A DNA stretch of 64,000 nt, taken from the NCBI RefSeq assembly GCF_003415675.1, contig NZ_QFZK01000010.1, positions 1-64,000 of the forward strand. Direction: 5' to 3'. Below are positions 9,774 to 37,390 of this stretch, one piece after another; position 1 is the first letter of the stretch; each line of letters opens with the position of its first letter. The translations under genes were made by a program, and so were the position numbers. Under the pieces are notes generated by a model. That model was not told where the DNA came from and ran no database searches. It saw nothing but the letters and a program-made list of their open reading frames with translations. The stretch comes from Rhodoferax lacus (GTDB taxonomy: Bacteria; Pseudomonadota; Gammaproteobacteria; Burkholderiales; Burkholderiaceae_C).

Positions 9774-9791
9774 ACATCGTCCTTTTGGACG
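9774..9791 (-). promoter_or_regulatory. Operator-like site A of the steroid-region motif
   Basis: On the minus strand this reads ACGTCC-AAAA-GGACGATG, matching the shared pattern TAGTCC-N4-GGACGATG. The core CGTCC/GGACG is a perfect inverted repeat. It lies 55 nt before the enoyl-CoA hydratase start, and a weak -10-like GAAGAT sits about 30 nt from its centre. The divergent SDR gene starts 36 nt to the right. Confidence 0.6.
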
Positions 9792-9827
9792 TATCGGGCA
9801 AAGGGCGTGGTCCGTAAATTCAAGGCC

Positions 9828-10607
9828 ATGAACCCCTATATCGATTTCCAACAACAGGTGGTGCTGGTCACCGGTGGCACCAAAGGCATTGGCCGCGGCA
9901 TTGCCGAGGGCTTTCTGGCCGCTGGCGCCACGGTCCTGGTGTGCGGGCGCAGCCTGCCCGAGGTAGCCCCCGCCCACCATGGGCGCGAGGCCGAATGCCT
10001 GGCCTGCGATGTGCGCGAGGCCGATGCCGTGCGCGCTCTGGTGCAGGGCGTTTTGCAACGCCATGGCCGGCTGGATGTGCTGGTGCACTGCGCTGGTGGC
10101 AGCCCGGCCGTGGAGGCCGCCACCGTGTCGCCCCGCTTTCACGAGGGCGTGATCCGCCTCAACTTCACGGCCGCCCTGCACACCGCACAGGCCGCCAACG
10201 CCGCCATGCAGCAGCAGGCTGCGGGTGGCGTCATTGTCTTCATTGGCAGCGTCAGCGCGCTGCGCCCCTCGCCCGGCACGGCCGCCTATGGCGCGGCCAA
10301 GGCCGCGGTGCTAAGCCTGGCGACTTCGCTGGCCGTGGAGTGGGCGCCCAAGGTGCGCGTGGTGGTGGTCAGCCCGGGGCTGGTGCGCACCGAACAGTCG
10401 GCCCTGCACTATGGCGACGCCGCTGGCATGGCCGCCGTGAGCGCCACCATTCCGCTGGGCCGCATGGCCGAGCCCGCTGACGTGGCGCAGGCCTGCCTGT
10501 TTGTGGCCTCGCCACAGGCGTCCTATCTCAGTGGCACCAACCTGCTGCTGCACGGCGGCGGCGAAAAGCCCGCCTTTCTGGATGCGGCAAAGGCTGGCAC
10601 AGCCTGA
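9828..10607 (+). CDS. Short-chain dehydrogenase/reductase
   Basis: NAD(P)-dependent oxidoreductase of 259 residues. The Rossmann motif TGGTKGIGRGIAEGF is near residue 16, NNAG is replaced by HCAGG, and the catalytic Ser-Tyr-Lys set appears as IGSVSA and YGAAKAA. PGLVRTE is the usual C-terminal loop. ATG 9828 begins the standard fold; longer frames upstream are only the antisense of the hydratase. It heads the plus-strand series of steroid acyl-CoA genes, 35 nt before the MaoC/OB protein. It is probably an alcohol or hydroxyacyl-CoA dehydrogenase in that pathway; the substrate is inferred from context only. Confidence 0.9.
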   Translation: MNPYIDFQQQVVLVTGGTKGIGRGIAEGFLAAGATVLVCGRSLPEVAPAHHGREAECLACDVREADAVRALVQGVLQRHGRLDVLVHCAGGSPAVEAATVSPRFHEGVIRLNFTAALHTAQAANAAMQQQAAGGVIVFIGSVSALRPSPGTAAYGAAKAAVLSLATSLAVEWAPKVRVVVVSPGLVRTEQSALHYGDAAGMAAVSATIPLGRMAEPADVAQACLFVASPQASYLSGTNLLLHGGGEKPAFLDAAKAGTA

Positions 10608-10642
10608 GCCCATGCAGCACCCCCCATTTCAAGGAGCAAGTC

Positions 10643-11620
10643 TTGGCTGAACACGCGTGGATGACAGAAATCCGGGCCCTGGTGGGCAAGGAATACGGGC
10701 GGGTCTATGCCTGGGATGCGGTCAACGCCCCCATGGTCCGGCAATGGTGCGAAATCATGGGCGTGAACGTGCCCACCGACGCCAGTGGGCAGGTGCTGGC
10801 GCCTCCGGCCATGCTGCAGGTGTGGTGCATGGAGGGGCCGGTGGCCAACAACTACCCGCCCGGCTCCACCAGCGAAAACCCCTACGAGGTTCTCAAGCTG
10901 ATCGAAGCCCAAGGCTACCCCTCGGTGGTGGCGGTGAACTCCGAGCTGAGCTTTGTGCGCGATGTGCGCGCGGGCGAAAAGCTCTACTACACCACGCGGC
11001 TGGACAGCATTGGCGAGGAAAAAACCACGGGCCTGGGCACCGGCTTTTTTGTCACCCTGGTGATGGACTATTTCTCGCAGCAGGAGCCCGGCCAGAGCGA
11101 CGAGGCCGTGGGGCAGCTGCTGTTTCGCGTCTTCAAGTTCCGCGCTGCACAGGCTGCCGCACCGACACCGACACCAGCACCCGTCACTGCAAGTGCCAGC
11201 GCCCCGGCGCCGCGCCGCCCCCTGCCCGGTATCAGCGACGACACGCGCTTTTTCTGGGACGGCGTGCGCCAGGGCCAGCTGCTGATCCAGCGCTGCAAGG
11301 CCTGCGCCAGCCTGCGCCATCCGCCCGGCCCGGTGTGCCCCACGTGCCATTCGTTTGAGTGGGACACCCTGCAGGCCTCGGGCCGCGGCACGGTGTATTC
11401 GTTTGTGGTGATGCACTACCCCGAGGTGGCGCCCTTTGAGCACCCAAACCTGATTGCGCTGATCGAGCTGGAGGAGGGCACCCGCCTGGTGGCCCAGCTG
11501 CTGGGCATTGCGCCCGATGCGGTGCAGATCGGGCAGGCGGTGCAAGTCGAATTCAACACCTTTGACGGTGACCTGGTGCTGGCGCAGTTCCGCCCGGTGG
11601 CCACCGCAGCACAGGCTTAA
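10643..11620 (+). CDS. MaoC-like/OB-fold (DUF35) fusion, ChsH2-like hydratase-aldolase partner
   Basis: The 325-residue protein has an N-terminal MaoC/hotdog domain (about residues 1-160), an Ala-Pro-rich linker (TPTPAPVTASASAPAP) and a C-terminal zinc ribbon plus OB fold. The ribbon cysteines are CKAC and CPTC. In cholesterol side-chain degradation ChsH2 has this order, forms a hydratase with ChsH1, and its DUF35 domain binds the aldolase Ltp2. A MaoC gene and an Ltp2-like gene follow here, so the same complex is likely. TTG 10643 is taken as start because AAGGAG lies seven bases upstream; ATG 10661 is the alternative. The next gene starts 9 nt after its stop. Confidence 0.85.
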   Translation: MAEHAWMTEIRALVGKEYGRVYAWDAVNAPMVRQWCEIMGVNVPTDASGQVLAPPAMLQVWCMEGPVANNYPPGSTSENPYEVLKLIEAQGYPSVVAVNSELSFVRDVRAGEKLYYTTRLDSIGEEKTTGLGTGFFVTLVMDYFSQQEPGQSDEAVGQLLFRVFKFRAAQAAAPTPTPAPVTASASAPAPRRPLPGISDDTRFFWDGVRQGQLLIQRCKACASLRHPPGPVCPTCHSFEWDTLQASGRGTVYSFVVMHYPEVAPFEHPNLIALIELEEGTRLVAQLLGIAPDAVQIGQAVQVEFNTFDGDLVLAQFRPVATAAQA

Positions 11621-11629
11621 GGAGTACCC

Positions 11630-12787
11630 ATGGACTTTCAACTCAACGACGACCAGCGCGCCTTTGCCGATACCGCGCAGCAGCTGTTTGCCGACTTCTG
11701 TGGCGACGACGCATTGCGCGCCCACGATGCCTCCGACCAACCCTTCATGCAGGCCCTGTGGCAGCAGTGCGTGGCTACCGGCCTGCACAGCATGCTGGTG
11801 CCCGAAGAGCATGGCGGCCTGGGCCTGGGCATGACCGAACTGATGGCCGTGCTGGAGCAGCAGGGCCGCGCCTTGGCGCTGGTGCCCCTTTGGGAGCAGC
11901 AACTGGCCGCCACCGCGCTGGCGTACTTTGCCCCGGCCGTGCTGGGCCAGCCGGTGCTGCAGGCCGCCCTGGCCGGTGCGCCGCTGGCCCTGTCGCTCAC
12001 CGCCCTGGCCGTGCCTGCCGGTTCTGCGCTGCGCCTGCGCGCAGGCGCCCGTGGCTGGCAGCTGCAGGGCCTGGCCCCGGCCGTGGCGCTGGGCCAGGAG
12101 GCCACCCACGCTGTGGTGGCTGCATCCCTGCACGGCAGTGCTGAAGGCGGCACGCGCCTGGTGCTGGTGGACTTGCAGCAAGCCGGTGTGCGCCGGGTGG
12201 CTGGGCGTACCCAGCACCACCTGGCGGTGGCGGACCTGCATTTTGACGACCTGGAACTGCCGCCCGAGGCGGTGCTGGCACCGGCGGCCGCAGGCTGGCT
12301 GGAGCCGCGCGCCATTGCCTGCCTGGCGGCCCTGCAAATGGGGGTGACGCAGCAGCAGCTGCGCCGCACCGTGGACTACGTCAGCGAGCGCAAACAGTTT
12401 GACCGCGTCATCGGCAGCTTCCAGCTGGTGGCCGGGCAGATGGCCGATGGCCACATTGCGCTGGAGGCGCTGCGCAGCTCGGTCTGGCAGCTGGTGTACC
12501 GGTTGGATGCGGGCCTGGGCGCCGCACCGCAGGCCTGGGCCACGCGGGCTCTCGCCAACGACACCGGGCACCGCGTGGGCCACATGGCGCAGCACGTGCA
12601 CGGCGGCATTGGGGTGGACATCAGCTACCCCATCCACCGCTTCCTCTACTGGAGCCGCGCCCTCAATGCGGTGCTGGGCGGCACCGAACACCAGCTGGCG
12701 CGCTTGGGCGACTGGCTGGCCGACAACGACAACCTGGGCTGGAAATATGACTTTGCCGAAGACACCCTCCATGACGCGGCGCTTTGA
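11630..12787 (+). CDS. Acyl-CoA dehydrogenase subunit (steroid side-chain type)
   Basis: Flavin enzyme subunit of 385 residues with the three-part acyl-CoA dehydrogenase fold. ERKQFDRVIGSFQLVAGQMA and QHVHGGIGVD are visible in the C-terminal helical domain. The tail after SRALNAVLGG lacks the common Y-E-G-T segment. Steroid acyl-CoA dehydrogenases are often alpha2beta2 pairs of two different short subunits; the likely partner is encoded at 14401-15582. AAGGAG precedes the ATG. Its 3' end overlaps the MaoC gene by 17 nt, which indicates translational coupling. Confidence 0.88.
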   Translation: MDFQLNDDQRAFADTAQQLFADFCGDDALRAHDASDQPFMQALWQQCVATGLHSMLVPEEHGGLGLGMTELMAVLEQQGRALALVPLWEQQLAATALAYFAPAVLGQPVLQAALAGAPLALSLTALAVPAGSALRLRAGARGWQLQGLAPAVALGQEATHAVVAASLHGSAEGGTRLVLVDLQQAGVRRVAGRTQHHLAVADLHFDDLELPPEAVLAPAAAGWLEPRAIACLAALQMGVTQQQLRRTVDYVSERKQFDRVIGSFQLVAGQMADGHIALEALRSSVWQLVYRLDAGLGAAPQAWATRALANDTGHRVGHMAQHVHGGIGVDISYPIHRFLYWSRALNAVLGGTEHQLARLGDWLADNDNLGWKYDFAEDTLHDAAL

Positions 12788-13178
12788 CGCGGTGCAGCCG
12801 GGCGAAGAGCTGCCCGCGCTCGCCGTGCCCATCACCGTGGCCCTGATTGCCGGTGGCGCCATTGCCACGCGCGATTACTTCCCCGGCCACCATGACGCAG
12901 AGGCCGCACGCGCCCTGGGCTCGCCCCACATCTTCATGAACATCCTCACCACCAACGGCCTGGTGCAGCGCTTTGTGGAAGGCTGGACCGGAGCGGGCGC
13001 GCGCCTGTGTGAACTGAAGATCAAACTCGGCGCCCCCAACTACCCCGGCGACACCATGACCTTCAGCGGCACGGTGGGCGCCAAGCGCGACCACGACCGC
13101 ACCGTGGAAATCCAGCTCAAGGGCAAGAACGCCATGGGCAACCACGTGAGCGGCACCGTGCGTGTGCAGCTGCCTTGA
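12771..13178 (+). CDS. MaoC-like hydratase subunit (ChsH1-like)
   Basis: Single hotdog-domain protein of 135 residues. The segment ATRDYFPGHHDAEAARALG carries the Asp and His expected of an R-specific enoyl-CoA hydratase active site. Together with the MaoC/OB protein at 10643 it probably forms a ChsH1-ChsH2-like hydratase acting on the steroid 17-propenoyl-CoA intermediate. The start ATG lies inside the end of the preceding acyl-CoA dehydrogenase gene; longer frames are only its overlap. It ends 21 nt before the aldolase gene. Confidence 0.85.
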   Translation: MTRRFDAVQPGEELPALAVPITVALIAGGAIATRDYFPGHHDAEAARALGSPHIFMNILTTNGLVQRFVEGWTGAGARLCELKIKLGAPNYPGDTMTFSGTVGAKRDHDRTVEIQLKGKNAMGNHVSGTVRVQLP

Positions 13179-13199
13179 AGCGCCTGGAGATAGAACCCC

Positions 13200-14378
13200 A
13201 TGACTGATATGAACATTTCCGGCCGCGCCTCCATCGTGGGCCTGGGTGCCACCGAGTTCTCCAAACGCTCTGGCCGCACCGAGGTGCGCCTGGCCATGGA
13301 GGCCACGTTGCAGGCCTTGGCCGATGCCGGCATCGACCCGTCCGAGGTGGACGGTTTTTCTTCCTACTCGGTGGACAAAGTGCCCGAGTACGAGATTGCG
13401 CGCCTGCTGGGCGCCAAGAACGTCAGCTTCTTCTCGCAGGTGCCCCACGGTGGTGGCGCCGCCTGTGCGCCGGTGCTGCATGCAGCCATGGCCGTGGCCA
13501 CCGGCATTGCCAAGACGGTGGTGGTGTACCGCGCCATGAACGAGCGTAGCTGGTACCGCTTTGGCAATGGCAACTACGGCTTTGGCGACTCGCCGCTGTT
13601 TGAGAACGTCAACTACGGCTGGTACATGCCGCACGGTTTTCACACGCCGGCCGCCTGGGTGGGCATGTTTGCGCGGCGCTACATGCATGCCTTTGGTGCC
13701 ACCAGTGAGGACTTCGGCCGTGTGGCCGTGGCCGTGCGCGATTTTGCGGCCACCAACCCGGCCGCCTTTTTCCACGGCAAGCCCATCACGCTGGAAGAGC
13801 ACCAGGCCTCGCGCTGGATTTGCGAGCCCCTGCACCTGCTGGACTGCTGCCAGGAATCCGACGGCGCGGTGGCCATGGTCATCACCTCCACCGAGCGCGC
13901 GCGCGACCTCCAGCGCACACCGGTGGTCATCAAGGGCGCCGCACAAGGCATCAGCGACGGCCAGCAGATCATGACCTCCTACTACCGCGAGGACATCACC
14001 GGCCTGCCGGAAATGGGCCTGGTGGCCAAGCAGCTGTGGCAGCAAAGCCGGCTCACGCCACAGGACATCCAGACCGCGGTGATCTACGACCACTTCACCC
14101 CTTTTGTGCTGCCGCAGCTCGAAGAGTTCGGCTTTGTCAAACGCGGTGAGGCCAAAGACTTCATACGCGCCGGCCAGCACGCGCGCGGCGGCAGCCTGCC
14201 CATCAACACCCACGGCGGCCAGTTGGGCGAGGCCTATATCCACGGCATGAACGGCATTGCCGAGGGCGTACGCCAGGTGCGTGGTGACGCCGTCAACCAG
14301 GTGGCCGATGTGCACAACGTGCTGGTTACTGCGGGCACCGGTGTGCCCACCAGCGGCCTGATTCTGGGCACTGCCTGA
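13200..14378 (+). CDS. Thiolase-like steroid side-chain aldolase (Ltp2/Sal-like)
   Basis: Thiolase-superfamily protein of 392 residues of the lipid-transfer-protein/SCP-x type. Visible segments are GLGATEFSKRSGRTE, GGGAACAPVL, AVIYDHFTPF and NTHGGQLGEAYIHG. In cholesterol and bile-acid pathways proteins of this class (Ltp2, Sal1) cleave the 17-hydroxy side-chain CoA ester by retro-aldol reaction instead of thiolysis, and need a DUF35 partner. Here that partner is most likely the 10643 protein. The gene sits between the hydratase and the second acyl-CoA dehydrogenase subunit. Aldolase rather than thiolase activity is inferred from family and context. Confidence 0.85.
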   Translation: MTDMNISGRASIVGLGATEFSKRSGRTEVRLAMEATLQALADAGIDPSEVDGFSSYSVDKVPEYEIARLLGAKNVSFFSQVPHGGGAACAPVLHAAMAVATGIAKTVVVYRAMNERSWYRFGNGNYGFGDSPLFENVNYGWYMPHGFHTPAAWVGMFARRYMHAFGATSEDFGRVAVAVRDFAATNPAAFFHGKPITLEEHQASRWICEPLHLLDCCQESDGAVAMVITSTERARDLQRTPVVIKGAAQGISDGQQIMTSYYREDITGLPEMGLVAKQLWQQSRLTPQDIQTAVIYDHFTPFVLPQLEEFGFVKRGEAKDFIRAGQHARGGSLPINTHGGQLGEAYIHGMNGIAEGVRQVRGDAVNQVADVHNVLVTAGTGVPTSGLILGTA

Positions 14379-14400
14379 AAACCCGAAAAAGAAAGAGTCC

Positions 14401-15582: not shown

Positions 15583-15612
15583 GACATCGCAAAAAAATAA
15601 GGGAGACAACCC

Positions 15613-19733: not shown

Positions 19734-19764
19734 GGCGCGCCCCCATCCACACCGAGAGACCGAG

Positions 19765-22647: not shown

Positions 22648-22665
22648 TAGTCTTTTCAGACGATG
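22648..22665 (+). promoter_or_regulatory. Operator-like site D of the steroid-region motif
   Basis: TAGTCT-TTTC-AGACGATG, with TTAG before and AA after, matches the shared motif; the compensating T/A changes keep the inverted repeat GTCT/AGAC. An AACAAT hexamer is at 22686-22691, 30.5 nt from the site centre. The site is 138 nt before the DUF1329 gene and just after the acyl-CoA synthetase stop, so it likely drives the DUF1329-DUF1302 pair. Confidence 0.6.
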
Positions 22666-22803
22666 AACAAAGCGGCCCCAGCCCCAACAATTCCATTATC
22701 GAATTCGTGTGATCTGCGCAGCACCTGCTGCGCAAGCCCAACGCATCGATTGCCACGGTCCGTGGCGAATTGGCCGAAATACTTGAAAGACAAGGAGACT
22801 GAA

Positions 22804-24189
22804 ATGAACAAGCGAATGGGAACTACGGCAACCGCCGCCATGGCCATCGGCCTGGTGCTGTCGGGCGCTGCATGGGCCAAAGTGCCTGCGGCCGAGGCCG
22901 ACAAACTGGGCAAGGAATTGACCTGCGTGGGCGCTGAAAAAGCCGCCAACAAAGACGGCAGCATTCCGGAGTTTTCCGGCAAGTGGCTGGGCACCCCCCC
23001 CGGCCTTACCTATACCAAAAGCGTGGGCCAACATCCGGTGGACCCCTACGCCAACGAGAAGCCGCTCTACAGCATCACCGCCGACAACATGGCGCAGCAC
23101 GCAGCCAAACTGTCGGACGGCCAGAAGGCCTTGTTTGCCAAGTTCCCCAAGACCTTCCGCATGGATGTGTACCCGGGCCACCGCGACTTCCGCTACCCCG
23201 ACTACGTATGCGATGCATCCAGGAAGAATGCGCTGAACGCCGAGATATCCGACGGCGGCCTGGGCATCAAGGGCGCCTTCAAGGGCGCCATTCCCTTCCC
23301 CCTGCCCAAGGATGGCAATGAAGCGCTGGCCAACAACACCTTCCCCTACCGCGCCTTCAACGAAGACACCGTGCGTGACATGGCCAATGTGCAGTCCAGC
23401 GGAAGCATTGCCTGGGGTCGTACACGCATTCTCAATCTGAATGTGGTCAACGGCTCCAGCATCATTGGCCAGCCGCTCGAAGGCGCCATGTCCTACAACC
23501 GCAGCACCATCTTGCTGCCCGAGCGTGACAAGGGCGGTGTATCGGTGTCCGAGGAGCCGGTGAACTTTGCCAAGGGCAAGCGCCTGGCCTGGAGCTACGA
23601 CCCCGGCACGCGCCGCGTGCGCCAGGTGCCAGAGTACGGCTTTGACCAGCCCATGGCGGGAACGGGTGGCAAGATGACTATCGACTCCGACAGTCTGTTC
23701 AACGGTTCGCCCGAGCGCTACAACTGGAAGCTGCTGGGCAAGCGTGAAATGTTTGTGCCAGCCAACAGCTACAAGCTGCACAGCAACACGGTGAAGTACG
23801 CCGACCTGCTCAAGCCCGGCACGCCCAACCCCGATTTCATCCGCTGGGAACTGCGCCGCGTGTGGGCTGTGGAGGGCACCTTGAAAGAGGGCTTCCGCCA
23901 CCTGTATGGCAAGCGCGTTATGTTTCTGGACGAAGACACCTGGAAGGCTGCCATGTCGGACTTCTATGACGCCCGCGGCAGCCTGTGGCAGTACGGCTTC
24001 ATCAACCACTACTACGCCTTTGACCTCGAAGGCTGGCATCCCGGCTCGGCCTTCTACCACGACCTGAACTCGGGTGGCTATGTAGGCTACAACCTGTTCC
24101 AGGAACGCGACAAGGGGCCTGTTCTCAACAAGGGCGACCTCAAGCCTGCGATGTTCACCCCCGAAGCTGCGCGCAGCGCCGGCAACTGA
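22804..24189 (+). CDS. DUF1329 family periplasmic/outer-membrane-associated protein
   Basis: Exported protein of 461 residues with a signal peptide (MAIGLVLSGAAWAK, cleavage near residue 26). The rest is the DUF1329 domain, whose fold has been compared with LolB-like lipid-binding proteins. Segments such as SYNRSTILLPERDKGG and HRDFRYPDYVCD are visible. An AAGGAGA site precedes ATG 22804; the longer frame from 22663 lacks support. It is followed 26 nt later by the DUF1302 gene. DUF1329 and DUF1302 genes recur beside RND transporters and YCF48-like genes in degraders of hydrophobic compounds, so a role in steroid passage across the envelope is likely but unproven. Confidence 0.85.
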   Translation: MNKRMGTTATAAMAIGLVLSGAAWAKVPAAEADKLGKELTCVGAEKAANKDGSIPEFSGKWLGTPPGLTYTKSVGQHPVDPYANEKPLYSITADNMAQHAAKLSDGQKALFAKFPKTFRMDVYPGHRDFRYPDYVCDASRKNALNAEISDGGLGIKGAFKGAIPFPLPKDGNEALANNTFPYRAFNEDTVRDMANVQSSGSIAWGRTRILNLNVVNGSSIIGQPLEGAMSYNRSTILLPERDKGGVSVSEEPVNFAKGKRLAWSYDPGTRRVRQVPEYGFDQPMAGTGGKMTIDSDSLFNGSPERYNWKLLGKREMFVPANSYKLHSNTVKYADLLKPGTPNPDFIRWELRRVWAVEGTLKEGFRHLYGKRVMFLDEDTWKAAMSDFYDARGSLWQYGFINHYYAFDLEGWHPGSAFYHDLNSGGYVGYNLFQERDKGPVLNKGDLKPAMFTPEAARSAGN

Positions 24190-24215
24190 TCACCGCAGAA
24201 CGAGGAACACATTCC

Positions 24216-26806: not shown

Positions 26807-29157
26807 GGCAGCCTCCTGACACCCACGTTGAGCCAGCAGGCCATGGCCGGCAGCAGGAAGATGGCGCCCAGCACATTGACCAGAAACATGAAGGCCAGCA
26901 GGATGCCCATATCGGCCTGGAACTTCAGGGCCGAGAAGGCCCAGGTGCCCACGCCAATAGCCATAGTGAAGGCGGTAAACACGGCGGCCGTGCCGCGCTG
27001 GCGCAGGGCCTCGTAGAAGGCCTCGCGCAGCGTGGCGCCGCGGTCCTCGATCTCGTGCTGCAGCCGCTCGAACAGGTAAATGCCGTAGTCCACGCCCACG
27101 CCCACGCCCAGCGCAATCACCGGCAGGGTGGCCACCTTCAGGCCAATGCCCAGGGCCGCCATCAGCGCGTTGCACAGGATGGACACCAGGGCCAGCGGCA
27201 CGATGATGCACAGCACCGCGCGCCAACTGCGAAAGGTCAGCCAGCACAGGAGCGTGATGGCACCAAAGATGGCTGCCAGCATCTGTACCTCAGCCTGCTC
27301 AACGGCCTCGTTGGTGGCGGCGGCCACACCGGCATTGCCACCGGCCAGACGGTACTTCAGGTTGGGCGTCTTGTCGGCCTCTATGAACTTGCGCACCTCG
27401 CCCACCACATGCTTGAGCGTGGCGCCCTCGTGGTCTTTGAGGAAGAGCTGCAGGTGCAGCACCTTGCAGCCGTCGGTGTTGAGGCCGAGCTCGGGGTTGG
27501 CCGCCTTGGCGCCGGTGCGCAGGGCGGCTTCGGTGCGCTGCAGGGCGGCCCAGCGCGGGTTGCCTTCGTTGTTGCCGGCGGCTGCCAGCTTGGCAATGCC
27601 GGCCACCGTGGCCACCGAGCGCACACCGTCCACGCCGCGCATGGTCTGGTCGAAGCGTTCGATGGAGTTCATCACCGGCCAGTTCAGGCAGGCTTCGTCC
27701 AGGTTGCTGGTCTCGGCATACACCGACAGCACGTCCATGCCGATGGAGTAGTCGCGGATGATGCTGGCGTTGTCCAGGTTGTAGCGCGACTCGGCGCGCA
27801 GCTCGGGCGCACCCGCGCCAATGTCGCCGGTCAGCAGGTGGCGCGACATGACTGTGCCGCCCACCATCAGGACCACGGACACGGCCAGTGTGACCAGCGC
27901 CGGCTTGGGTTCAACCAGAGCCGACACGCGCCACCAGTGCGGATGGCGCTGCGCGTGCTGGTTGACGTCCATCTGCGGCAAGGTCGATGGCCGCACATAG
28001 GACAGCGACACCGGCAGCACCACCTTGTTGGTCAGCACCATCAGCAGCACACCCAGGCAGGCGGTCACGCCCAGCTCGTGCACGATGGGGATGTCAATCA
28101 TCATGATCACCATGAAGCCCAGTGCATTGGTCAGCAGTGCCACCGTGCCGGGCACGGCCAGACGGCGAAAGGCGTTGCGGGCCGCATTGCTGGGGCTCTC
28201 ACCACAATGCACCTCGTACTTCCAGGCATTGGTCATCTGCACTGCGTGCGACACACCGATGGAGAAAATCAAAAATGGCACCAGAATCGACATCGGGTCT
28301 ATGCCGTAGCCAGCCAGGGGCAGCAGCCCCAGCAGCCAGATCACCGGCAGCATGGCCACCGACAGCGCCAGCACCGTCAGGCTGCGCGCGCGCGAGTAGG
28401 CCCACAGCAGCAGCGCGGTGATGACAAAGGCAATCACGAAGAAGCCCATGACGATGATCAGGCCCTCCATCACATCGCCCACCACCTTGGCAAAGCCGAC
28501 GATGTGGATCTCGATGCGCGGGTCATTGAACTTGCCGCGTATGGCTTCGAGCTTTTGCGCCACGTCGTGGTAGTCCAGGCGCTTGCCGGTTTGCGGGTCC
28601 ACCTCCAGCAGGTCGGCGCGCACCAGGGCGGACTTCAGGTCATTGCCCACCAGGCGGCCGATCTGGCCGGACTTGGCCACGTTCGAGCGCACCTGGGCCA
28701 GGCCCTGCGCGTCCGGGGTGAAGCGCGAGGGGATGATCACCTCGCCCACAAAGCCGTCTTCGGTAATTTCGATGTAGCGCACGTTGGGCGTGAACAGCGA
28801 ATACACCTGGCCGCGGTTCACGCCCGGGGTGAAGAACACCTCGTCGTTGACGCCGCGCAGGGCTTTGAGAAAGTCTTCGTTGTAGATGTCGCCCTCGCCC
28901 TTCCACTTCACGCTCACCAGCACCCGGTTGGCCCCGGAGAAGGTGGTGGCGTGCTGCAAGAAGGCTGCCATGTATTCGTGGCGCATGGGGATGAGCTTGT
29001 TGAAGCCCGCGTCCAGGTGCGTGCGCATGGCAGAGGCGCCCAGCAGCACGGTGATCAGGGCCGTGAGGATCACTACCGTTTTGCGCCAGGCAATCAGGGT
29101 CTGCGCCATCTGCGCAATCAGGCGCTGCGCGCCAGAGGTGGGTTCGGTCAGGCTCAT
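26803..29157 (-). CDS. RND superfamily (MMPL-type) inner-membrane transporter
   Basis: Membrane protein of 784 residues built as two halves, each with one large periplasmic loop and a cluster of membrane helices, as in hydrophobe-exporting MMPL/HAE proteins. GVGVDYGIYLFERLQ near residue 690 is the sterol-sensing-like/RND helix motif, and FLIFSIGVSHAVQMTNAWKY is its counterpart in the first half. It overlaps the upstream YCF48-like gene and the downstream NTF2-like gene by ATGA. With DUF1329 and DUF1302 proteins nearby it could move steroids or their CoA-free products across the envelope. Direction of transport is unknown. Confidence 0.88.
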   Translation of the reverse strand: MSLTEPTSGAQRLIAQMAQTLIAWRKTVVILTALITVLLGASAMRTHLDAGFNKLIPMRHEYMAAFLQHATTFSGANRVLVSVKWKGEGDIYNEDFLKALRGVNDEVFFTPGVNRGQVYSLFTPNVRYIEITEDGFVGEVIIPSRFTPDAQGLAQVRSNVAKSGQIGRLVGNDLKSALVRADLLEVDPQTGKRLDYHDVAQKLEAIRGKFNDPRIEIHIVGFAKVVGDVMEGLIIVMGFFVIAFVITALLLWAYSRARSLTVLALSVAMLPVIWLLGLLPLAGYGIDPMSILVPFLIFSIGVSHAVQMTNAWKYEVHCGESPSNAARNAFRRLAVPGTVALLTNALGFMVIMMIDIPIVHELGVTACLGVLLMVLTNKVVLPVSLSYVRPSTLPQMDVNQHAQRHPHWWRVSALVEPKPALVTLAVSVVLMVGGTVMSRHLLTGDIGAGAPELRAESRYNLDNASIIRDYSIGMDVLSVYAETSNLDEACLNWPVMNSIERFDQTMRGVDGVRSVATVAGIAKLAAAGNNEGNPRWAALQRTEAALRTGAKAANPELGLNTDGCKVLHLQLFLKDHEGATLKHVVGEVRKFIEADKTPNLKYRLAGGNAGVAAATNEAVEQAEVQMLAAIFGAITLLCWLTFRSWRAVLCIIVPLALVSILCNALMAALGIGLKVATLPVIALGVGVGVDYGIYLFERLQHEIEDRGATLREAFYEALRQRGTAAVFTAFTMAIGVGTWAFSALKFQADMGILLAFMFLVNVLGAIFLLPAMACWLNVGVRRLP

Positions 29158-30164
29158 GGCTTGGCTCCGGTGTCGGCTGGGGGTTGGGCGCTCTGGGCCT
29201 GTGGCAGGGCCTGCAGGCCCGCGTCGCTGGTGATCCAGCCGCTGCCGTCTGCAGCCACCTGGATATCGGTCAGGGTGGCACGCCCCTTGGCCCGGCTGAT
29301 GCCAAAGCTGTTGCCACCGTCCGTGCTGGTGGCGATCAGGCTGCCCTGGCCCACCAGCAGCAGCCGGCCATCGGGCAGCACGGCATGGTTGAAGAAGGAC
29401 GTGGGCACCGGCAGCGTGGAGCGGCTCCAGGAGCCTTGCGCACCCTGGCTCACAAAGGCGTTGCCGCGCATGCCGTAGGCCAGCCAGTTGCCATCGGGCA
29501 GGGCGGCGGCGTTGTAGAGGGAGCCCTTGTAGAAAGGCTCCACGGCGGCCCAGTGCTCGCCGCCATCATCCGAGCGCAGCACCAGGCCGCGCTCGCCCAC
29601 GATCAGCCAATGCCGGCCGTCAGCCGAGCCGACCACGCGGTTCATGTGCTTGTCATCGAGCGCGTCGCCGGTCTTGGGCAGCACCAGGCGCTGCCAGCTG
29701 TTGCCGGCATCATCCGAGCGCAGTGCGCGGCCAAAGGCGCCCACCACAATCCAGGACCCCGAGGGCAGCCGACCCACGCCCATCAGGGGTTCGCCGTTCT
29801 GCTCGTCAAACGCCACTTCCTCCCAGCTCAGGCCGCCGTCGGTGGTGCGCAGGATCCAGCCTTCGTGGCCCACAGCCATGCCTGTCAGTCCATCGCCGGC
29901 AAAGCTGATCTGGTTGATCAGCGCCTGGCGCTGCACCGGCATAGCCGCGCGCTGCCAGTCCCGGCCCTGGTTGGTGGAATACAGCACCGTACCCAACTCG
30001 CCAGCCGTCACCAGGCCGGCCTTGGAGCGGGCAATGGTGTTGAGGTGCAACTTCTCCACCGCCAAACGGGTTACGGCCAGTGCAGGCGTCTCCCTGGGGG
30101 CAAAGGCTTGGACGGCCGCTGCGGCCATCAATGCGGCCATGATCAGGCCAACGGGGGTTCTCAC
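29154..30164 (-). CDS. YCF48/BNR-repeat periplasmic protein
   Basis: Exported protein of 336 residues with a signal peptide (VGLIMAALMAAAAVQAFA). The body has repeated beta-propeller blades such as LYSTNQGRDWQ, LRTTDGGLSWE, LRSDDAGNSWQ and LRSDDGGEHW, the sequence type of photosystem II assembly factor YCF48. In bacteria lacking photosynthesis such proteins sit beside RND transporters and may be periplasmic adaptors. It is first in the operon, with operator-like site B 78 nt upstream. The function in steroid metabolism is inferred from context. Confidence 0.85.
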   Translation of the reverse strand: MRTPVGLIMAALMAAAAVQAFAPRETPALAVTRLAVEKLHLNTIARSKAGLVTAGELGTVLYSTNQGRDWQRAAMPVQRQALINQISFAGDGLTGMAVGHEGWILRTTDGGLSWEEVAFDEQNGEPLMGVGRLPSGSWIVVGAFGRALRSDDAGNSWQRLVLPKTGDALDDKHMNRVVGSADGRHWLIVGERGLVLRSDDGGEHWAAVEPFYKGSLYNAAALPDGNWLAYGMRGNAFVSQGAQGSWSRSTLPVPTSFFNHAVLPDGRLLLVGQGSLIATSTDGGNSFGISRAKGRATLTDIQVAADGSGWITSDAGLQALPQAQSAQPPADTGAKP

Positions 30165-30242
30165 GCTGTAGTCTCCTATCGGGTCGCCCGGTCAAACGCC
30201 AGGGCTGCTGTGGGCCGCATTGTCACCTTCCACCACCCCCCG

Positions 30243-30261
30243 TCATCGTCCGAAGGGACGA
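30243..30261 (-). promoter_or_regulatory. Operator-like site B of the steroid-region motif
   Basis: On the minus strand it reads TCGTCC-CTTC-GGACGATGA; TCGTCC/GGACGA is a perfect 6-bp inverted repeat with a 4-nt gap. GACAAT on the minus strand (30219-30224) lies 29.5 nt from the centre. It faces the YCF48-RND-NTF2 operon. Confidence 0.65.
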
Positions 30262-30290: not shown

Positions 30291-30308
30291 TAGTCCTGGC
30301 GGACGATG
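30291..30308 (+). promoter_or_regulatory. Operator-like site B2 of the steroid-region motif
   Basis: TAGTCC-TGGC-GGACGATG, followed by a CACAAT hexamer at 30329-30334, 30.5 nt from the centre. It lies 55 nt before the thiolase-like gene at 30364 and 45 bp from site B, which faces the other way. The 199-nt divergent region therefore has one site per direction. Confidence 0.65.
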
Positions 30309-30363
30309 ATGCACGCAGGGCGCCTTGTCACAATCGCCGCATTGCTCAATACCGAGGGTTCGC

Positions 30364-31584
30364 ATGGGTCTTCAAGGAAAGTCGGCGCTGGTTGGCGCCG
30401 CACAGTACAAGCCGGAAAAATACGCCACCGCGCCGCGCATGTTTCACCTGGAACAGGTGGCCGATCTGGCCACCCAGGCGCTGGATGATGCGGGCCTGTC
30501 GCTGTCCGATGTGGACGGCCTGATCACCGTGGGCCCGCAGTTCCATGAGGCCGGCATGTTCGTGCCGGCCATGGCCGGCGAATACCTGGGCGTACCCCTG
30601 AACTATGCCGAGGTGGTGGACCTGGGGGGCGCAAGCTCCGTGGGCATGGTCTGGCGTGCCGCCGCCGCCATTGAGCTGGGGCTGTGCGACACCGTGGTGT
30701 GCGTGATCCCCTCGCGCATGGCGCCCACCGCAGCGCACGATGACCACGCCGCCGAGGTCATGCGCGCCAGCCGCTTTGGCGGCCACAGCACGCGCTTTGG
30801 CGCACCCGAGGCCGAGCTCGATCTGCCCTATGGCCACATGGCGCAAAACACCGGCTACGCCATGATTGCCCAGCGCTATGCCGCGCTGCACGGCTACGAT
30901 GCAGCCGCCTTGGCGCGCATCTGCGTGGACCAGCGCTTCAACGCCTGCCACAACCCCCAGGCCATGTTCTACGGCCAGCCCCTCACGGTGGACGATGTGC
31001 TGGCCTCGCGCATGGTGGCAGAGCCGCTGCGCATGTTGGAGATCGTGATGCCGGTGGCTGGCGGCGGCGCCATGGTGCTCACCCGCGCCGACAAGGCACG
31101 GGGCTGCCGCCACCGCGGCGTGCAGGTCATTGGCTGCGGCGAGCATGTGCAAAGCAAGTCGCCCACCTATGCCAAGGACATGCTGGCCACCCCGATTGGC
31201 CCGGCCTCGCGCAAGGCCTTTGCCATGGCGGGCCTTACGCCCGCCGATATGCACATGGCGCAGATATACGACTGCTACACCATCACCGTCATGCTGACGC
31301 TGGAAGACGCGGGCTTTTGCGCCAAGGGCGAGGGCATGCGCTTTTTGCGCGAGCACGATTTCACCTTCAAGGGCAACTTCCCGATGAACACCCACGGCGG
31401 ACAACTCAGCTTTGGCCAGACCGGCAGCTCCGGCGGCATGACGCAGGTCATCGAGGCCATGCACCAGATCCAGGGCCGCGCGGGCGTGCGCCAACTGGCA
31501 CGCCACGACCTGGCCTATGTGTCGGGCACGGGCGGTGTGATGAGCGAGCAGGGCGCCCTGATCCTGCAAGGAGCCGCAGCATGA
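30364..31584 (+). CDS. Thiolase-like aldolase (second Ltp/Sal-type protein)
   Basis: Thiolase-superfamily protein of 406 residues. It has LEQVADLATQALDDAGLSLS, VDLGGASSVGM where ordinary thiolases carry the nucleophilic cysteine, QIYDCYTITVM, and NTHGGQLSFGQTG. The apparent lack of a cysteine at the first position argues for aldol cleavage rather than thiolysis. Its stop overlaps the next gene (ATGA), which encodes a DUF35/MaoC fusion, the expected partner type. This makes a second hydratase-aldolase module besides that at 10643-14378, probably for a different side-chain length. ATG 30364 begins the natural N terminus; the longer frame is unsupported. Confidence 0.86.
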   Translation: MGLQGKSALVGAAQYKPEKYATAPRMFHLEQVADLATQALDDAGLSLSDVDGLITVGPQFHEAGMFVPAMAGEYLGVPLNYAEVVDLGGASSVGMVWRAAAAIELGLCDTVVCVIPSRMAPTAAHDDHAAEVMRASRFGGHSTRFGAPEAELDLPYGHMAQNTGYAMIAQRYAALHGYDAAALARICVDQRFNACHNPQAMFYGQPLTVDDVLASRMVAEPLRMLEIVMPVAGGGAMVLTRADKARGCRHRGVQVIGCGEHVQSKSPTYAKDMLATPIGPASRKAFAMAGLTPADMHMAQIYDCYTITVMLTLEDAGFCAKGEGMRFLREHDFTFKGNFPMNTHGGQLSFGQTGSSGGMTQVIEAMHQIQGRAGVRQLARHDLAYVSGTGGVMSEQGALILQGAAA

Positions 31585-32534: not shown

Positions 32535-32556
32535 TCAAGATACGCTGCAAAAAGGA

Positions 32557-32584
32557 AAAGGCCGCCCTGATTGAGGCGGCCTTT
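32557..32584. terminator. Bidirectional terminator between convergent operons
   Basis: AAAGGCCGCC and GGCGGCCTTT form a perfect 10-bp stem with an 8-nt loop, between the stop of the DUF35/MaoC gene (32534) and that of the aldolase gene (32619). The T-rich right arm and A-rich left arm suit both strands. Confidence 0.85.
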
Positions 32585-32618
32585 CTTATGGGGGTGTAAT
32601 CCGTCGTATGGGCGTAGC

Positions 32619-33656: not shown

Positions 33657-33669
33657 AGGGGTGCTTTCT

Positions 33670-34608
33670 TCAGGCGGCAATATCGGCCATAGCGGCCACA
33701 GTGGCCACGGGCTTGAGGGTGATGTGGCCGTCCAGGATTTCCTGGGCGAACATCTCGGCAGTGCGGCTGGCCGCCGCGGTCATGATGTCCAGGTTGCCGG
33801 CATAGGTGGGCAGGTAGTCACCCAGGCCTGCCACCTGCATGTAGACGGCCACGCGCTTGCCGTCAAACAGCGGGCCGTTGACCAGGGTGTAGCCGGGCAC
33901 GTATTTCTGCACCTCGGCGATCATGGCGTGGATGGACGCGGTGATGCGCTCCTGGTCCGGCTCCTCATCGCACAGGCACTGGATGGTGTTGCGCATCATC
34001 ATGGGCGGCTCGGCCGGGTTGATGATGCACAGGGCCTTGCCCTTGCGCGCGCCGCCCACTTTTTCGATGGCGTTGGACGTGGTGTAGGTGAATTCGTCGA
34101 GGTTGGCACGTGTGCCCGGGCCTATGGATTTGGAGGCCAGGCTGGCCACGATCTCGGCGTAGCCCACGCCCTGTATGCGGCTGACGGCGTGCACGATCGG
34201 TATCGTTGCCTGCCCCGCGCACGAGATCATGTTGACGTTCATCTCCCCGGCGTGTTCGCGCAGGTTCACCGGCGGCACGCACAGCGGGCCGATGGCCGCG
34301 GGGGTCAGGTCGATCATCAGCACGCCCAGCGCGTTGAGCTTGCGGCTGTTCTCGGCATGTACGTAAGCGCTGGTGGCGTCAAAGGCAATCTGGATGCCGT
34401 CGGCCAGCACATGGGGCAACAGGCCGTCCACGCCCTCGGCCGTGGTCTTGAGGCCCATGGCGCGGGCGCGCTCCAGGCCTTCGGAGCCGGGGTCAATACC
34501 CACCATCCAGACCGGCTCAAGCACCGGGCTGCGCTGGAGCTTGTAGATCAGGTCGGTGCCGATGTTGCCGGAGCCGATCAGGGCGCACTTGATTTTCTTG
34601 TGTGTCAT
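33670..34608 (-). CDS. tesF: Acylating acetaldehyde/propionaldehyde dehydrogenase
   Basis: Oxidises the aldehyde from the aldolase to acetyl-CoA or propionyl-CoA with NAD. It has 312 residues, normal for the family. Visible are the NAD-binding [26 protein letters not shown], the catalytic cysteine in [18 protein letters not shown], and [15 protein letters not shown]. It lies between the hydratase and aldolase genes, with 13 nt on either side; the aldolase and dehydrogenase normally form a channeling complex. In steroid ring A breakdown the substrate is propanal; acetaldehyde would be used in catechol pathways. Context favours propanal. Confidence 0.93.
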
Positions 34609-34621
34609 AGGGGTTCTTGCC

Positions 34622-35440
34622 TTATTCAGTAAACGCGATGGAACAGCCGCCCAGGCCCTCGATCTGCAGGGTGAAGCGGTCGCCCGCCACGGCGCTCACC
34701 AGCGGTGCCAGCGAGCCCGAGAGAATGATTTCGCCAGCCTTGAACGGGATGCCGAAAGCCCCCAGGGTGTTGGCCAGCCAGGCCACGGCCTCGGCCGGGT
34801 GGCCTTGCACCGCAGAGCCCAGACCAGCGCCGGCCGGCACGCCGTTTTGCCACATCTGCATGGAGGCGCAAGCCAGGTCCAGGCTGCGCGGGTCGGTCTG
34901 CTGCGTGCCCAGCACGAAGACGCCGCAGGAGGCGTTGTCAGCCACCGTGTCCTGGATGCGGATCTTCCAGTCCTGCACGCGCGAATCCACAATTTCAAAG
35001 CAGGGCGCCACATAGGCAGTGGCGGCCAGCACGTCCTCGCGCGTGACGCCCGGGCCTTGCAGGTCGGCGCGCAGCACAAACGCGATTTCGCCCTCGGCGC
35101 GCGGCTGGATCAGCCCGGCTTGAGTGAGCGACACCGTGGCGCCATCAGCCATGTGCATGGTGTCGGTGAGGAAGCCAAAATCGGGCTGGTACACGCCCAG
35201 CATGTCCTGCACCGCCTTGGAGGTCACGCCGATCTTTTTGCCGATGACGCGTTCGCCCGAAGCCTCGCGCAGGCGCAGCATGTGCAGCGAGATGCGGTAG
35301 GCATCTTCTACCGTCAGGTCCGGGTGGCGGCTGGTCAGGGGTGTGACCGTGCTGCGCTGGCGCAGGGCCTGGAACAGCTCATCGCCCAGGGCAGCTATCC
35401 GTTCGTTTTGCGGGTCGTTATTCATATGCGGCTCAGCCAT
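34622..35440 (-). CDS. tesE: 2-hydroxyhexa-2,4-dienoate/2-oxopent-4-enoate hydratase
   Basis: Hydratase of 272 residues that adds water to the dienoate released by ring A hydrolysis. Segments [43 protein letters not shown] and [20 protein letters not shown] are family signatures with metal-binding acidic residues. Its start overlaps the hydrolase stop by 8 nt if ATG 35440 is used; ATG 35425 is the non-overlapping alternative. It is followed 13 nt later by the acylating dehydrogenase. Confidence 0.92.
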
Positions 35441-36272
35441 GCTGCAAGAAGTCGATGCAGCTGCGGTTGAACAGCTCCTGGTGTTCCACCTGCACCCAAT
35501 GGCCGCAGCGGTTGAGCAGTTGCAGGCGCGCCTGCGGTGCGTTTTGCAGGATCTTCATGGCGCCGCCCACCGGGTTGAACTGGTCATTCACCCCCCAGAA
35601 GCCGTAGATGGGGCACTGCAGTTCGTGCAGGCGATCGGTCATGTTGGGCACCTTCATCACCGAGCGCGCCGCCTGGGTCTGCAGCGCGGCAATCGGTGCG
35701 CGCTCGGCAATGATGGCGTCGGTCAGCAGCGTGGGGTCAAACAGCTGCATGGTCATCACTGCGCGCATGGCCTCCGCCCCGGTTTTGCCGGACTTGTAGA
35801 TGGCGAACATATTGGCAATGCCGGGCATGTCCAGGTAGGTCTGCAGGTCTTCCACACCGCCGGGCGCCATCAGGATCAGGCGGCTTACTTCCTGCGGGTA
35901 GGCCAGTGCGTAGCCCAGGGCCACCGCGCCACCCAGGGAGTTGCCCAGCAGCGTGATGTTCTTCAGGCCCAGGGCGTCCACCAGCCCCTTGACGCCGGCA
36001 ACAAAGAAGTCCAGGTCATACATGGGGATGTCGGGCTTGCTTGAGAGGCCAAAGCCCAGCAGGTCGGGCACGATGCTGCGGTAGCCCGCCTGTGCAAACA
36101 CGGGGTAGTTGCCCTTGAAGTTGCTGTAGCCGCTGGCGCCACCTCCGGCGCCGTGCAAAAAGATCACCACCTCGCCCTCGCCCTGGTCGTGGTAGTGGAT
36201 GCGCTGTGCGGCGCCGGCCACCGGCGCAATGTCTGCAAAGTGGCCAATGGGGATGGGGGAGGGCTGTGTCAT
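35433..36272 (-). CDS. tesD: Meta-cleavage product hydrolase (HsaD/TesD-like)
   Basis: Alpha/beta hydrolase of 279 residues that cuts the C-C bond of the meta-cleavage product of ring A. The oxyanion segment is FLHGAGGGASGYSNF, the nucleophile elbow is LLGNSLGGAVA, the acid lies in WGVNDQFNPVGG and the His in NRCGHWVQVEH, so the triad is complete. The frame extends to 36329, but ATG 36272 gives the natural N terminus and does not overlap the reductase gene end. It lies between the flavin reductase and hydratase genes. No extradiol dioxygenase, which would make its substrate, is in the window. Confidence 0.92.
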   Translation of the reverse strand: MTQPSPIPIGHFADIAPVAGAAQRIHYHDQGEGEVVIFLHGAGGGASGYSNFKGNYPVFAQAGYRSIVPDLLGFGLSSKPDIPMYDLDFFVAGVKGLVDALGLKNITLLGNSLGGAVALGYALAYPQEVSRLILMAPGGVEDLQTYLDMPGIANMFAIYKSGKTGAEAMRAVMTMQLFDPTLLTDAIIAERAPIAALQTQAARSVMKVPNMTDRLHELQCPIYGFWGVNDQFNPVGGAMKILQNAPQARLQLLNRCGHWVQVEHQELFNRSCIDFLQHG

Positions 36273-36304
36273 GGTGTGGTGGGGGTAGTGATAGGTTGGG
36301 TGGC

Positions 36305-37285
36305 TTACGAATCGGTGCGCGCAGTCCACAGCTTGGGCAGGCCGGGGTCGGTGATGGAGATCAGGCGCTTGAGCAGGTTGCGCAGCATGGCGGCTTCCAT
36401 CTCGCCGAGCTGGTCGATCACATCGGCCTCCTCGGCCTTGGCAGCGGCCAGCACATGCAGGATGGCATCGCGCCCGCGGACGCTCAGGGCAAAGCTGTCG
36501 GCCTGGGGCTGCTCCAGCAGGCCGCGGTCACACAGGGCCTGCAGCAGCACCGGGCCCACATCAATGGCGGTGTAGGCCACATGGCCGGCAATGGCGCTGG
36601 ACGACAGGGGTGCCTGCACGCTCAGCAGCGAGAGCACGAAGAAGTCCGCCTCGCTCAGGCCGCGCTCATTGAGCGTGCTGCGTATGCCGCCCACAAACTG
36701 GAAGTGCGAGCGGCCCAGCAAATAGCCCAGCAGGTCCTCGGAAAACAGCGCCGAGCCCGTGTCCGCACGCGGCTCGGTGGACACCGGTTCGGACTTGCGT
36801 GCCGCCAGCGCGTAGCCGCCGGTCACGTAGAGCAGGGGCGGGCGCTCGCTGCGGTCGTAGCCAATCACTTCGCCGACAAAGATGATGTGGTCCCCGCCCT
36901 CGTACTGGAACATGGTGCGGCACTGGAAGCGCGCGCTGCAGGCCTGCAGCAGGGGGGCCTGGCTGGGGCTGGGGTCGAGCTGCAGGCCGCTGAACTTGTC
37001 TTCGCCCGCGCGGGCGAACAGGTTGGACATGTCCACCTGGTCTTCGGCCAGGATGTGCACGTTCCAGTGTCCGGCGCTGGTAAAGCTGTCCAGGCTGCGC
37101 GCGCTCTTGGCCAGGCTCCACAGCACCAAGGGCGGCGAGATGGAGACCGAGTTGAAGCTGTTGGCGGTCACGCCCACCGGTGCGCCATCGGCCGCATGGG
37201 CGGTGACGATGGTGACACCGGTGGCAAACATGCCAAGGGCACGGCGGAAGTCTTTGGGGTCGAAGGTCTGGGGCGCGAGAGCCAT
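36305..37285 (-). CDS. Flavin reductase with C-terminal MarR-like domain (seco-hydroxylase reductase)
   Basis: Protein of 326 residues. The first 170 residues are a flavin reductase domain (RRALGMFATGVTIVTAHAAD, ANSFNSVSISPPLVLWSL). The remaining 150 residues resemble a MarR-type winged helix (LSEADFFVLSLLSVQAPLSS, CDRGLLEQPQADSFALS). This long form is known from the C1 reductase of Acinetobacter 4-hydroxyphenylacetate hydroxylase, where the extra domain binds the substrate and controls reduction. It most likely supplies reduced flavin to the oxygenase encoded divergently at 37497 for hydroxylation of the 3-hydroxy-9,10-seco steroid. Short HsaB reductases lack the extra domain. Confidence 0.88.
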   Translation of the reverse strand: MALAPQTFDPKDFRRALGMFATGVTIVTAHAADGAPVGVTANSFNSVSISPPLVLWSLAKSARSLDSFTSAGHWNVHILAEDQVDMSNLFARAGEDKFSGLQLDPSPSQAPLLQACSARFQCRTMFQYEGGDHIIFVGEVIGYDRSERPPLLYVTGGYALAARKSEPVSTEPRADTGSALFSEDLLGYLLGRSHFQFVGGIRSTLNERGLSEADFFVLSLLSVQAPLSSSAIAGHVAYTAIDVGPVLLQALCDRGLLEQPQADSFALSVRGRDAILHVLAAAKAEEADVIDQLGEMEAAMLRNLLKRLISITDPGLPKLWTARTDS

Positions 37286-37335
37286 GGAAGTCTCCTGTTG
37301 TGGCGCCAGTATCCAAGCGCTGCGCCGCCGTGAAA

Positions 37336-37353
37336 TCCTCCAGAAGGACTAGG
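37336..37353 (-). promoter_or_regulatory. Operator-like site C2 of the steroid-region motif
   Basis: On the minus strand it reads TAGTCC-TTCT-GGAGGATT, a weaker right arm than the others. GATACT at 37308-37313 lies 30.5 nt from the centre. It faces the reductase-tesDEFG operon and is 50 nt from its first start codon. Confidence 0.5.
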
Positions 37354-37372
37354 CGCCCATGGTGTCTGTGCT

Positions 37373-37390
37373 TAGTCCACTTGGACGATG
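37373..37390 (+). promoter_or_regulatory. Operator-like site C of the steroid-region motif
   Basis: TAGTCC-ACTT-GGACGATG with TTAG before and AA after, identical in both arms to site B2. It is 106 nt before the oxygenase gene and 37 bp from site C2, which faces the other way. The hexamer at the expected place is weak (GACGAT, 37412-37417). Confidence 0.6.

Follow-up and report, generated by a model that had tools for sequence, protein, structure and literature searches.

Introduction

A 64,000-nucleotide stretch of the Rhodoferax lacus genome (here called the window; G000:C1:1-64000 of an assembly of 4.9 Mb in 71 contigs) carries a steroid-degradation region in which short, similar palindromes lie upstream of the genes. 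What do these palindromes do, which protein reads them, and how is the direction of transcription set? An initial annotation had proposed that six such sites form an operator shared by all divergent promoters of the region and bound by a single activator at about −41. We find that they are very probably the operator of one activator of the whole steroid-degradation regulon, most likely the LuxR-type regulator TeiR/TesR.

TeiR/TesR is known from Comamonas testosteroni as a LuxR-type positive regulator, alongside further regulators (PMC6678751, PMC8399759, PMC8700777), and in strain TA441 TesR is required for induction of tesB-tesR, tesA1-tesG and tesA2-ORF18 (PMC6895838). Pseudomonas stutzeri Chol1 has two TeiR-like genes, and deletion of one delays cholate degradation, according to unpublished data mentioned in PMC8399759. 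TeiR has been described as polar, in one review as membrane-located, and as kinase-active (PMC6678751, PMC8700777, PMC8399759). A literature search, with the original TeiR paper outside its reach, found neither a DNA operator for TeiR nor a description of a directional rule within such an operator.

Results

The sites of the window and their distance to the −10

The operator is the palindrome T[AC]GTC[CT]-N4-[AG]GAC[GT]A, whose promoter-side arm is followed by an extra TG. A search of the window for TAGTCC-N4-GGACGATG with up to three mismatches gave 13 matches, whereas 100 shuffles averaged 2.85 and never exceeded 7. All six sites of the initial annotation are present, three of them one or two bases away from the coordinates it gave (corrected in Table 1); the seven further matches are reverse readings of three of the six, or weak matches with two or three mismatches (7600, 47336, 47372 and 63774). 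A palindromic operator precedes all seven operon starts of the steroid region, the limits and starts of operons being inferred from strand and spacing. The idea that every site occupies a divergent promoter could not be upheld at 22648, where the genes on both sides are on the plus strand. The site at 9777, annotated for the minus strand, also has a strong predicted −10 (TAAATT) towards the plus-strand genes. The compensating T/A pair noticed at the site labelled D is real there and is no rule among relatives: in 46 non-redundant relatives this base pair is symmetric in 11 (C/G in 10, T/A in one) and asymmetric in 35.

A −10 hexamer was scored at each offset, counting from the T that opens the site. 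As the initial annotation had noted, such hexamers begin 29.5, 30.5 or 31.5 nucleotides (nt) from the dyad centre; we find them at this place on all seven arms assigned to genes and on none of the five other arms, a call being a score of at least 1, which is a cut chosen after the scores were seen (the weakest of the seven scores 1.1). In terms of offset, all seven lie at 37–39, and a chance of about 0.10 per arm gives 8e-8 for this outcome. The same spacing is seen well beyond the window. In 79 hsaA promoters (described below) the −10 score peaks at offset 38, at −0.16 against a mean of −4.89 (standard deviation, sd, 1.12), and in the 46 non-redundant ones it is −0.52 against −4.99 (sd 1.04). 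For 195 other sites, selected within 99 stretches regardless of their −10, offset 38 stands 6.0 sd above the mean offset, and 6.1 sd for the 172 that are non-redundant. The −10 starts 38 nt (±1) into the site. If transcription begins 7 nt after the −10, this puts the dyad centre near −42.5, and the spacing supports the proposal of one activator at about −41. The start points predicted in this way are given in Table 1. That at 9827 directly precedes the ATG of the SDR genes at 9828, and the SDR-gene mRNA may be leaderless or may start elsewhere.

At a spacing of 17 nt, the place of the −35 reads ATGNNN and matches TTGACA at 3.1 of six positions on average in the hsaA promoters and at 2.8 of six in the other sites. 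Such a poor −35 is expected of an activated promoter, but it is not absent and hints that the polymerase may contribute to the constraint.

Arm sequence and the direction of transcription

The sequence of an arm goes with the presence of a −10 on its side. In a set of 136 non-redundant core palindromes (272 arms) from the 99 stretches, hsaA sites included, a −10 at offset 37–39 faces 84% of the 129 GACGATG arms, compared with 12% at control offsets. For the 108 GACTA arms the figure is 20% (control 11%), and for the 35 other GACGA arms 60% (control 15%). Since the classes of arm differ in how often a −10 faces them, the promoter side is marked by a G where the far side has a T.

Conservation upstream of hsaA

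The orthologous promoters of relatives carry the site at hsaA. An alignment of four hsaA orthologues retrieved 512 relatives, and the analysis drew on the 80 best named loci; two of these (L154 and L192) begin at the gene, leaving 78 with upstream DNA. An oriented site lies upstream of hsaA in all 78, at 77–196 nt before the aligned start and with 12–14 of 14 positions matching. Counting the window as well, 60 of the 79 promoters match at 14 of 14 positions, 16 at 13 and three at 12. By their record titles the relatives include Comamonas, Thauera, Zoogloea, Massilia, Marinobacterium, Vibrio, Shewanella, Endozoicomonas and Colwellia, and the sequence flanking the sites diverges among them. In 39 of the 80 loci the DNA just upstream holds a divergent hsaB-like gene, and two C. 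testosteroni loci (L175 and L178) have two sites between the divergent hsaB- and hsaA-like genes. Within a sample of 300 members of the order there are four hsaA orthologues, three scoring 14/14 and that of G245 12/14. As a control, hsaA-like paralogs (32–37% identity) had no site in 26 of 26 cases, with best upstream scores of 9–11 of 14; for two of them the upstream DNA was shorter than 400 nt, and six more paralog matches had no locus.

A phylum-wide sample gave seven hsaA-like matches, four of them new (G630, G376, G406 and G627); a clear forward site is present at two of these four. G630 has a forward site of 13/14. G376, from another class and perhaps an alphaproteobacterium, has one of 14/14, which lies 139 nt upstream and has its −10 at offset 38.

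Distribution in the genome and a second steroid contig

All 11 exact matches to TMGTCYNNNNRGACGATG in the R. lacus genome (nine places, two of which match on both strands) fall in the window (four) or on contig C25 (seven), which together make up 2.3% of the genome. With at most one mismatch, 32 operator matches were found against seven for the reversed pattern used as a control; in other genomes the counts were 34 against nine (G093, C. testosteroni), 18 against four (G245) and 45 against 25 (G285).

Contig C25 carries kshA (13062-14177), the gene of an extradiol dioxygenase (36036-36950) and genes for ETF subunits, acyl-CoA dehydrogenase, SDR and transporters, together with a LuxR gene of the TeiR/TesR type. 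Steroid genes outside the window carry the site too, a positive outcome for the genome-wide check suggested by the initial annotation: one site lies directly before the extradiol dioxygenase gene and another before an SDR gene followed by kshA. Seven places on C25 score at least 11/12, six of them intergenic and one (11786) inside a gene model with an uncertain start. In G093 an 18-mer identical to that of R. lacus precedes the extradiol dioxygenase gene. We also note that the 18-mer TAGTCCCAAAGGACGATG stands at two places in G093 away from the main steroid stretch (G093:C1:1781092 and 2925855), and that there is an imperfect site (L267:2674; 11 of 12 core positions) 79 nt before the C. testosteroni kshA homologue.

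These data bear on an alternative in which the shared sequence is no protein operator but mainly a promoter element (an unusual −35) or a repeat. The promoter-side arm does lie over the −35 at the ideal spacing of 17 nt, is nearly invariant and agrees with TTGACA at about three of six positions. However, the element is a palindrome of two arms around a free centre, its far arm is conserved as well although it lies upstream of any −35, the flanks diverge, and all 11 exact matches in this genome fall on the two contigs that bear steroid genes. We regard such an explanation as extremely unlikely. The partial −35 leaves our weighing of the explanations unchanged, because the far arm, the distribution and the co-occurrence described below are untouched by it.

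A TeiR/TesR homologue as the candidate regulator

The initial annotation had named a LuxR-type protein such as TeiR, encoded elsewhere, as a candidate. A gene of this family is found at C25:20945-22123 on the minus strand, and its product, 65% identical to the C. testosteroni homologue, is the putative regulator. The search started from a gene with a GerE domain that closes the tes stretch in a C. testosteroni genome. Homologues with E below 1e-60 occur in four of the 300 members of the order, the same four that have a strong hsaA match (E below 1e-100). Of 46 named hsaA-positive genomes, 45 have a homologue; in 28 of the 80 hsaA loci teiR lies within the fetched flanks. Across 26 homologues the helix-turn-helix (HTH) is on average 89% identical (minimum 80%) and the remainder 56–60% (minimum 29–32%), so that a conserved HTH is joined to variable sensor parts, as expected if the DNA target is fixed. 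Pfam and NCBIfam scans of TeiR gave GerE and weak PAS matches, with no kinase domain among the matches, and PF00196 (GerE) is over its cut-off in all four homologues scanned. A structural model of the L150 homologue (mean pLDDT 69.6) predicts a helical C-terminus, and Foldseek returned weak GAF/PAS sensor matches with listed TM-scores below 0.4; no sequence relative was found in the PDB at E up to 0.001. Neither model nor matches are used here as evidence of binding.

In the R. lacus genome and in G093, teiR adjoins a thiolase gene, and upstream of it the same strand carries the extradiol dioxygenase gene. No site lies directly upstream of teiR in either genome or in 27 hsaA-linked teiR genes (best scores 7–10 of 12 positions within 300–400 nt), and autoregulation through such a site was rejected. 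The R. lacus gene begins 61 nt after the thiolase gene, and control through an upstream operon promoter is possible. One TeiR paralog of G285 has a site about 180 nt upstream. Sites beside further TeiR paralogs, or a few kilobases (kb) from them, were seen at G285:C1:2287739 and 2287790, G285:C2:1163924 and G093:C1:1676582, hinting at cross-regulation among paralogs.

A TetR-type gene (C25:5911-6609) also lies inside the C25 cluster, and the sites could instead be the operator of its product, acting as a KstR-like repressor overlapping the −35 region. TetR proteins commonly bind palindromes, and an orthologue of 63% identity is present in a C. testosteroni genome. KstR of actinobacteria is likewise a TetR repressor of steroid genes (PMC6678751). 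However, the C25 protein has homologues (E up to 1e-20) in only 13 of the 46 hsaA-positive genomes. G245 has sites but lacks a match, and G285 has sites with nothing beyond weak matches. A repressor would also leave unexplained the fixed 38-nt distance to the −10 and the arm that encodes direction. As the protein does not track the operator across genomes we rejected it as the binder, and consider this explanation very unlikely.

Another explanation is that the protein at the site is a different LuxR/NarL-type activator and that TeiR is a sensor further upstream, in line with the published kinase view, since reviews call TeiR a kinase (PMC6678751, PMC8700777). The R. lacus genome offers other candidates, with 25 GerE-domain matches (E up to 1e-5) besides the one strong TeiR match, and one Colwellia genome has the site with no TeiR found. 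The R. lacus genome also contains TAGTCC-N4-GGACTA palindromes (one of them a variant) at L034:5424, L035:5454 and L035:8089 on contigs C11 and C30, which the operator resembles. They precede epsE, the LuxR gene epsA (a TIGR03020 match of 241 bits against a cut-off of 170) and a nearby gene; as exopolysaccharide (EPS) genes follow, they were rejected as further steroid sites, and they are probably the operator of EpsA. That a related half-site occurs at a second LuxR gene suggests that this kind of half-site may be read by GerE domains. On the other side, G245 has only three GerE matches (E up to 1e-5) besides TeiR, so that few other candidates exist there, and the HTH of TeiR itself is its best conserved part, in a protein with no kinase domain in the scans. 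The co-occurrence counts cover TeiR and the TetR protein. We judge a different activator to be unlikely and retain TeiR/TesR as the candidate.

Genes and other regulators of the window

The initial annotation held that the cluster contains no regulator gene. None was seen among the window genes scanned from 8.2 to 46 kb; at the end of the steroid region, however, positions 46174-46896 (minus strand) hold a fragment with a LysR substrate-domain match. This fragment has no HTH match and no relative in the 80 hsaA loci, and a LysR-type (HsdR-like) regulon was rejected, since there is only a fragment and it is not conserved near hsaA. A separate LysR gene (1232-2113) adjoins enolase outside the steroid region; the search for LysR relatives in the hsaA loci concerned the fragment. 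Antisense gene models at 10.5-12.8 kb and 14.3-16.8 kb were rejected because Pfam places the genes on the plus strand.

The 18-mer of the window at 9775-9792, ACGTCCAAAAGGACGATG, recurs unchanged in several genera, with copies at L265:11514, L140:5085, L146:2434, L150:18939, L171:6418, L183:20019, L193:14197 and L198:20947; the identification of the genes that follow it covers the copy in the window.

Table 1. Operators, predicted −10 hexamers with approximate predicted starts, and target genes in the window
Feature	Position	Strand	Remarks
Operator 1	9777..9792	probably two-way	18-mer 9775-9792 (−); GGACGATG arm towards minus strand, enoyl-CoA hydratase; GGACGTAT arm towards plus strand, SDR and side-chain genes 9828-22625
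Operator 2	22648..22663	+	18-mer 22648-22665 (+); GACGATG arm faces DUF1329/DUF1302 genes (22840-25754)
Operator 3	30246..30261	−	18-mer 30244-30261 (−); GGACGATG arm faces Ycf48-like and MMPL genes (26803-30140, minus)
Operator 4	30291..30306	+	18-mer 30291-30308 (+); GGACGATG arm faces thiolase and ChsH2-MaoC genes (30364-32534)
Operator 5	37336..37351	−	18-mer 37334-37351 (−); GGAGGATT arm faces reductase (hsaB/tesA1-like) and ring-cleavage genes (32619-37285, minus); related site in many relatives
Operator 5, far arm			GGACTA, faces away
Operator 6	37373..37388	+	18-mer 37373-37390 (+); GGACGATG arm faces hsaA and downstream FAD_binding_2 dehydrogenases
−10 GAAGAT	9749..9754	−	predicted; offset 38; enoyl-CoA hydratase; start about 9742
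−10 TAAATT	9815..9820	+	predicted; offset 38; SDR/ChsH2/acyl-CoA dehydrogenase genes; start about 9827
−10 AACAAT	22686..22691	+	predicted; offset 38; start about 22698
−10 GACAAT	30219..30224	−	predicted; offset 37; start about 30212
−10 CACAAT	30329..30334	+	predicted; offset 38; start about 30341
−10 GATACT	37308..37313	−	predicted; offset 38; start about 37301
−10 GACGAT	37412..37417	+	predicted; offset 39, weakest of the seven; start about 37424
Enoyl-CoA hydratase	8906..9718	−	target gene
SDR oxidoreductase	9828..10607	+	first of the side-chain genes
Side-chain genes	9828-22625	+	SDR, ChsH2, acyl-CoA dehydrogenases, MaoC, thiolase, CoA ligases
DUF1329 protein	22840..24189	+	target gene
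Ycf48-like protein	29154..30140	−	weak match, 64 bits against cut-off 326; target gene
Thiolase-like protein	30364..31584	+	target gene
Flavin reductase, hsaB/tesA1-like	36305..37285	−	target gene
hsaA/tesA2-like oxygenase	37497..38693	+	364 bits to NCBIfam HsaA, under cut-off 450; target gene

Discussion

The sites of the window are conserved in relatives, keep a fixed distance to the −10, carry arms whose sequence goes with the direction of transcription and co-occur with teiR. The shared-activator interpretation of the initial annotation is supported, and the protein bound would be TeiR. In the mechanism that we propose, a TeiR dimer would bind T[AC]GTC[CT]-N4-[AG]GAC[GT]A centred about 42.5 base pairs before the start, where it would overlap the poor −35 box and contact RNA polymerase (class II activation), presumably in response to a steroid or steroid metabolite. 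The GACGATG arm would stand next to the polymerase and fix the direction, its ATG end falling at the place of the −35, 17 nt before the −10, where it may serve both proteins. The GACTA arm would lie on the side away from the polymerase, and sites with GACGATG on both sides could fire both ways.

Several observations weigh against this reading, or against parts of it. Two of the further hsaA-like genes do not fit: G406 (48% identity) has an 11/14 forward match beside a 14/14 site that faces away, and G627, of another class (42% identity), has no site of at least 13/14 in about 20 kb, together with a TeiR-like protein (E 2.4e-59) whose recognition region is less like the others. Colwellia chukchiensis (L208) keeps the hsaA site and has no TeiR detectable by sequence or profile. 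Several genomes have two to seven TeiR homologues, more than one of which could be the protein that binds. The GerE match in the R. lacus TeiR is marginal (23.8 against 23.5 bits), and the published kinase view does not by itself predict direct DNA binding. As to the promoters, the −10 weights reflect general knowledge of Escherichia coli promoters, and part of the conservation of the promoter-side arm may come from the polymerase rather than the activator. GACTA arms face a −10 slightly more often than the control (p about 0.003), an excess that may leave room for weak reverse promoters. Finally, the site at C25:24727 is two-armed yet lies between two genes on the same strand, and we rejected the rule that two-armed sites always separate divergent genes. 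Nor is the switch universal, since testosterone degradation is also reported for the alphaproteobacterium Novosphingobium tardaugens, which lacks a TeiR-like protein (PMC6895838).

With these points in mind we still lean, with some reservation, towards a fuller picture taken as a whole: TeiR/TesR would be a soluble one-component sensor of a steroid or metabolite, directly DNA-binding, that rules aerobic steroid breakdown through a polar palindrome in beta- and gammaproteobacteria and probably in a further class, and a change in one arm (GACGATG or GACTA) would decide whether there is transcription on that side. If true, this would replace the published membrane-kinase picture. What is new is an operator and a regulon map for a known type of regulator, and a directional rule within the operator. 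The operator provides a search handle, in that a gene behind it in these genomes is a candidate steroid gene; with the arm rule, sequence alone can suggest which way transcription runs, and the operator could serve as a steroid-sensing promoter part.

Comparison with known systems places the operator as follows. The TetR proteins KstR and KstR2 are, like the activator proposed here, regulators of steroid-degradation genes (PMC6678751), and EdcR likewise has a palindrome common to steroid-degradation promoters (PMC8700777). Those proteins are, however, repressors, the TetR candidate of R. lacus does not track the sites, and the EdcR palindrome, TnnCnnTACnAnTnGTAnnGnnA, has another sequence than the operator described here and lies over the −10. 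EpsA (TIGR03020) is likewise a LuxR protein, and in R. lacus the palindrome in front of its gene shares the GGAC half-site and the N4 spacer; the two best EPS sites differ in having GGACTA on either side, the regulon is another one, and EpsA is the presumed binder. In class II LuxR-type promoters the lux box lies at about −42.5, and the operator resembles it in being a palindrome of similar size with its centre predicted at about −42.5 and a −35 that is poor though not absent. Unlike those promoters, its arms carry a mark of direction (GACGATG as opposed to GACTA) and the regulon is catabolic rather than one of quorum sensing. The closest system is TeiR/TesR of C. testosteroni, with a candidate regulator of the same protein family, a gene placed in the same way behind thiolase and extradiol dioxygenase genes, and the same target transcripts by the published account, tesB-tesR, tesA1-tesG and tesA2-ORF18 (PMC6895838). 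That source cites tesR-like genes as limited to C. testosteroni, whereas homologues are present in nearly all the hsaA-positive genomes studied here.

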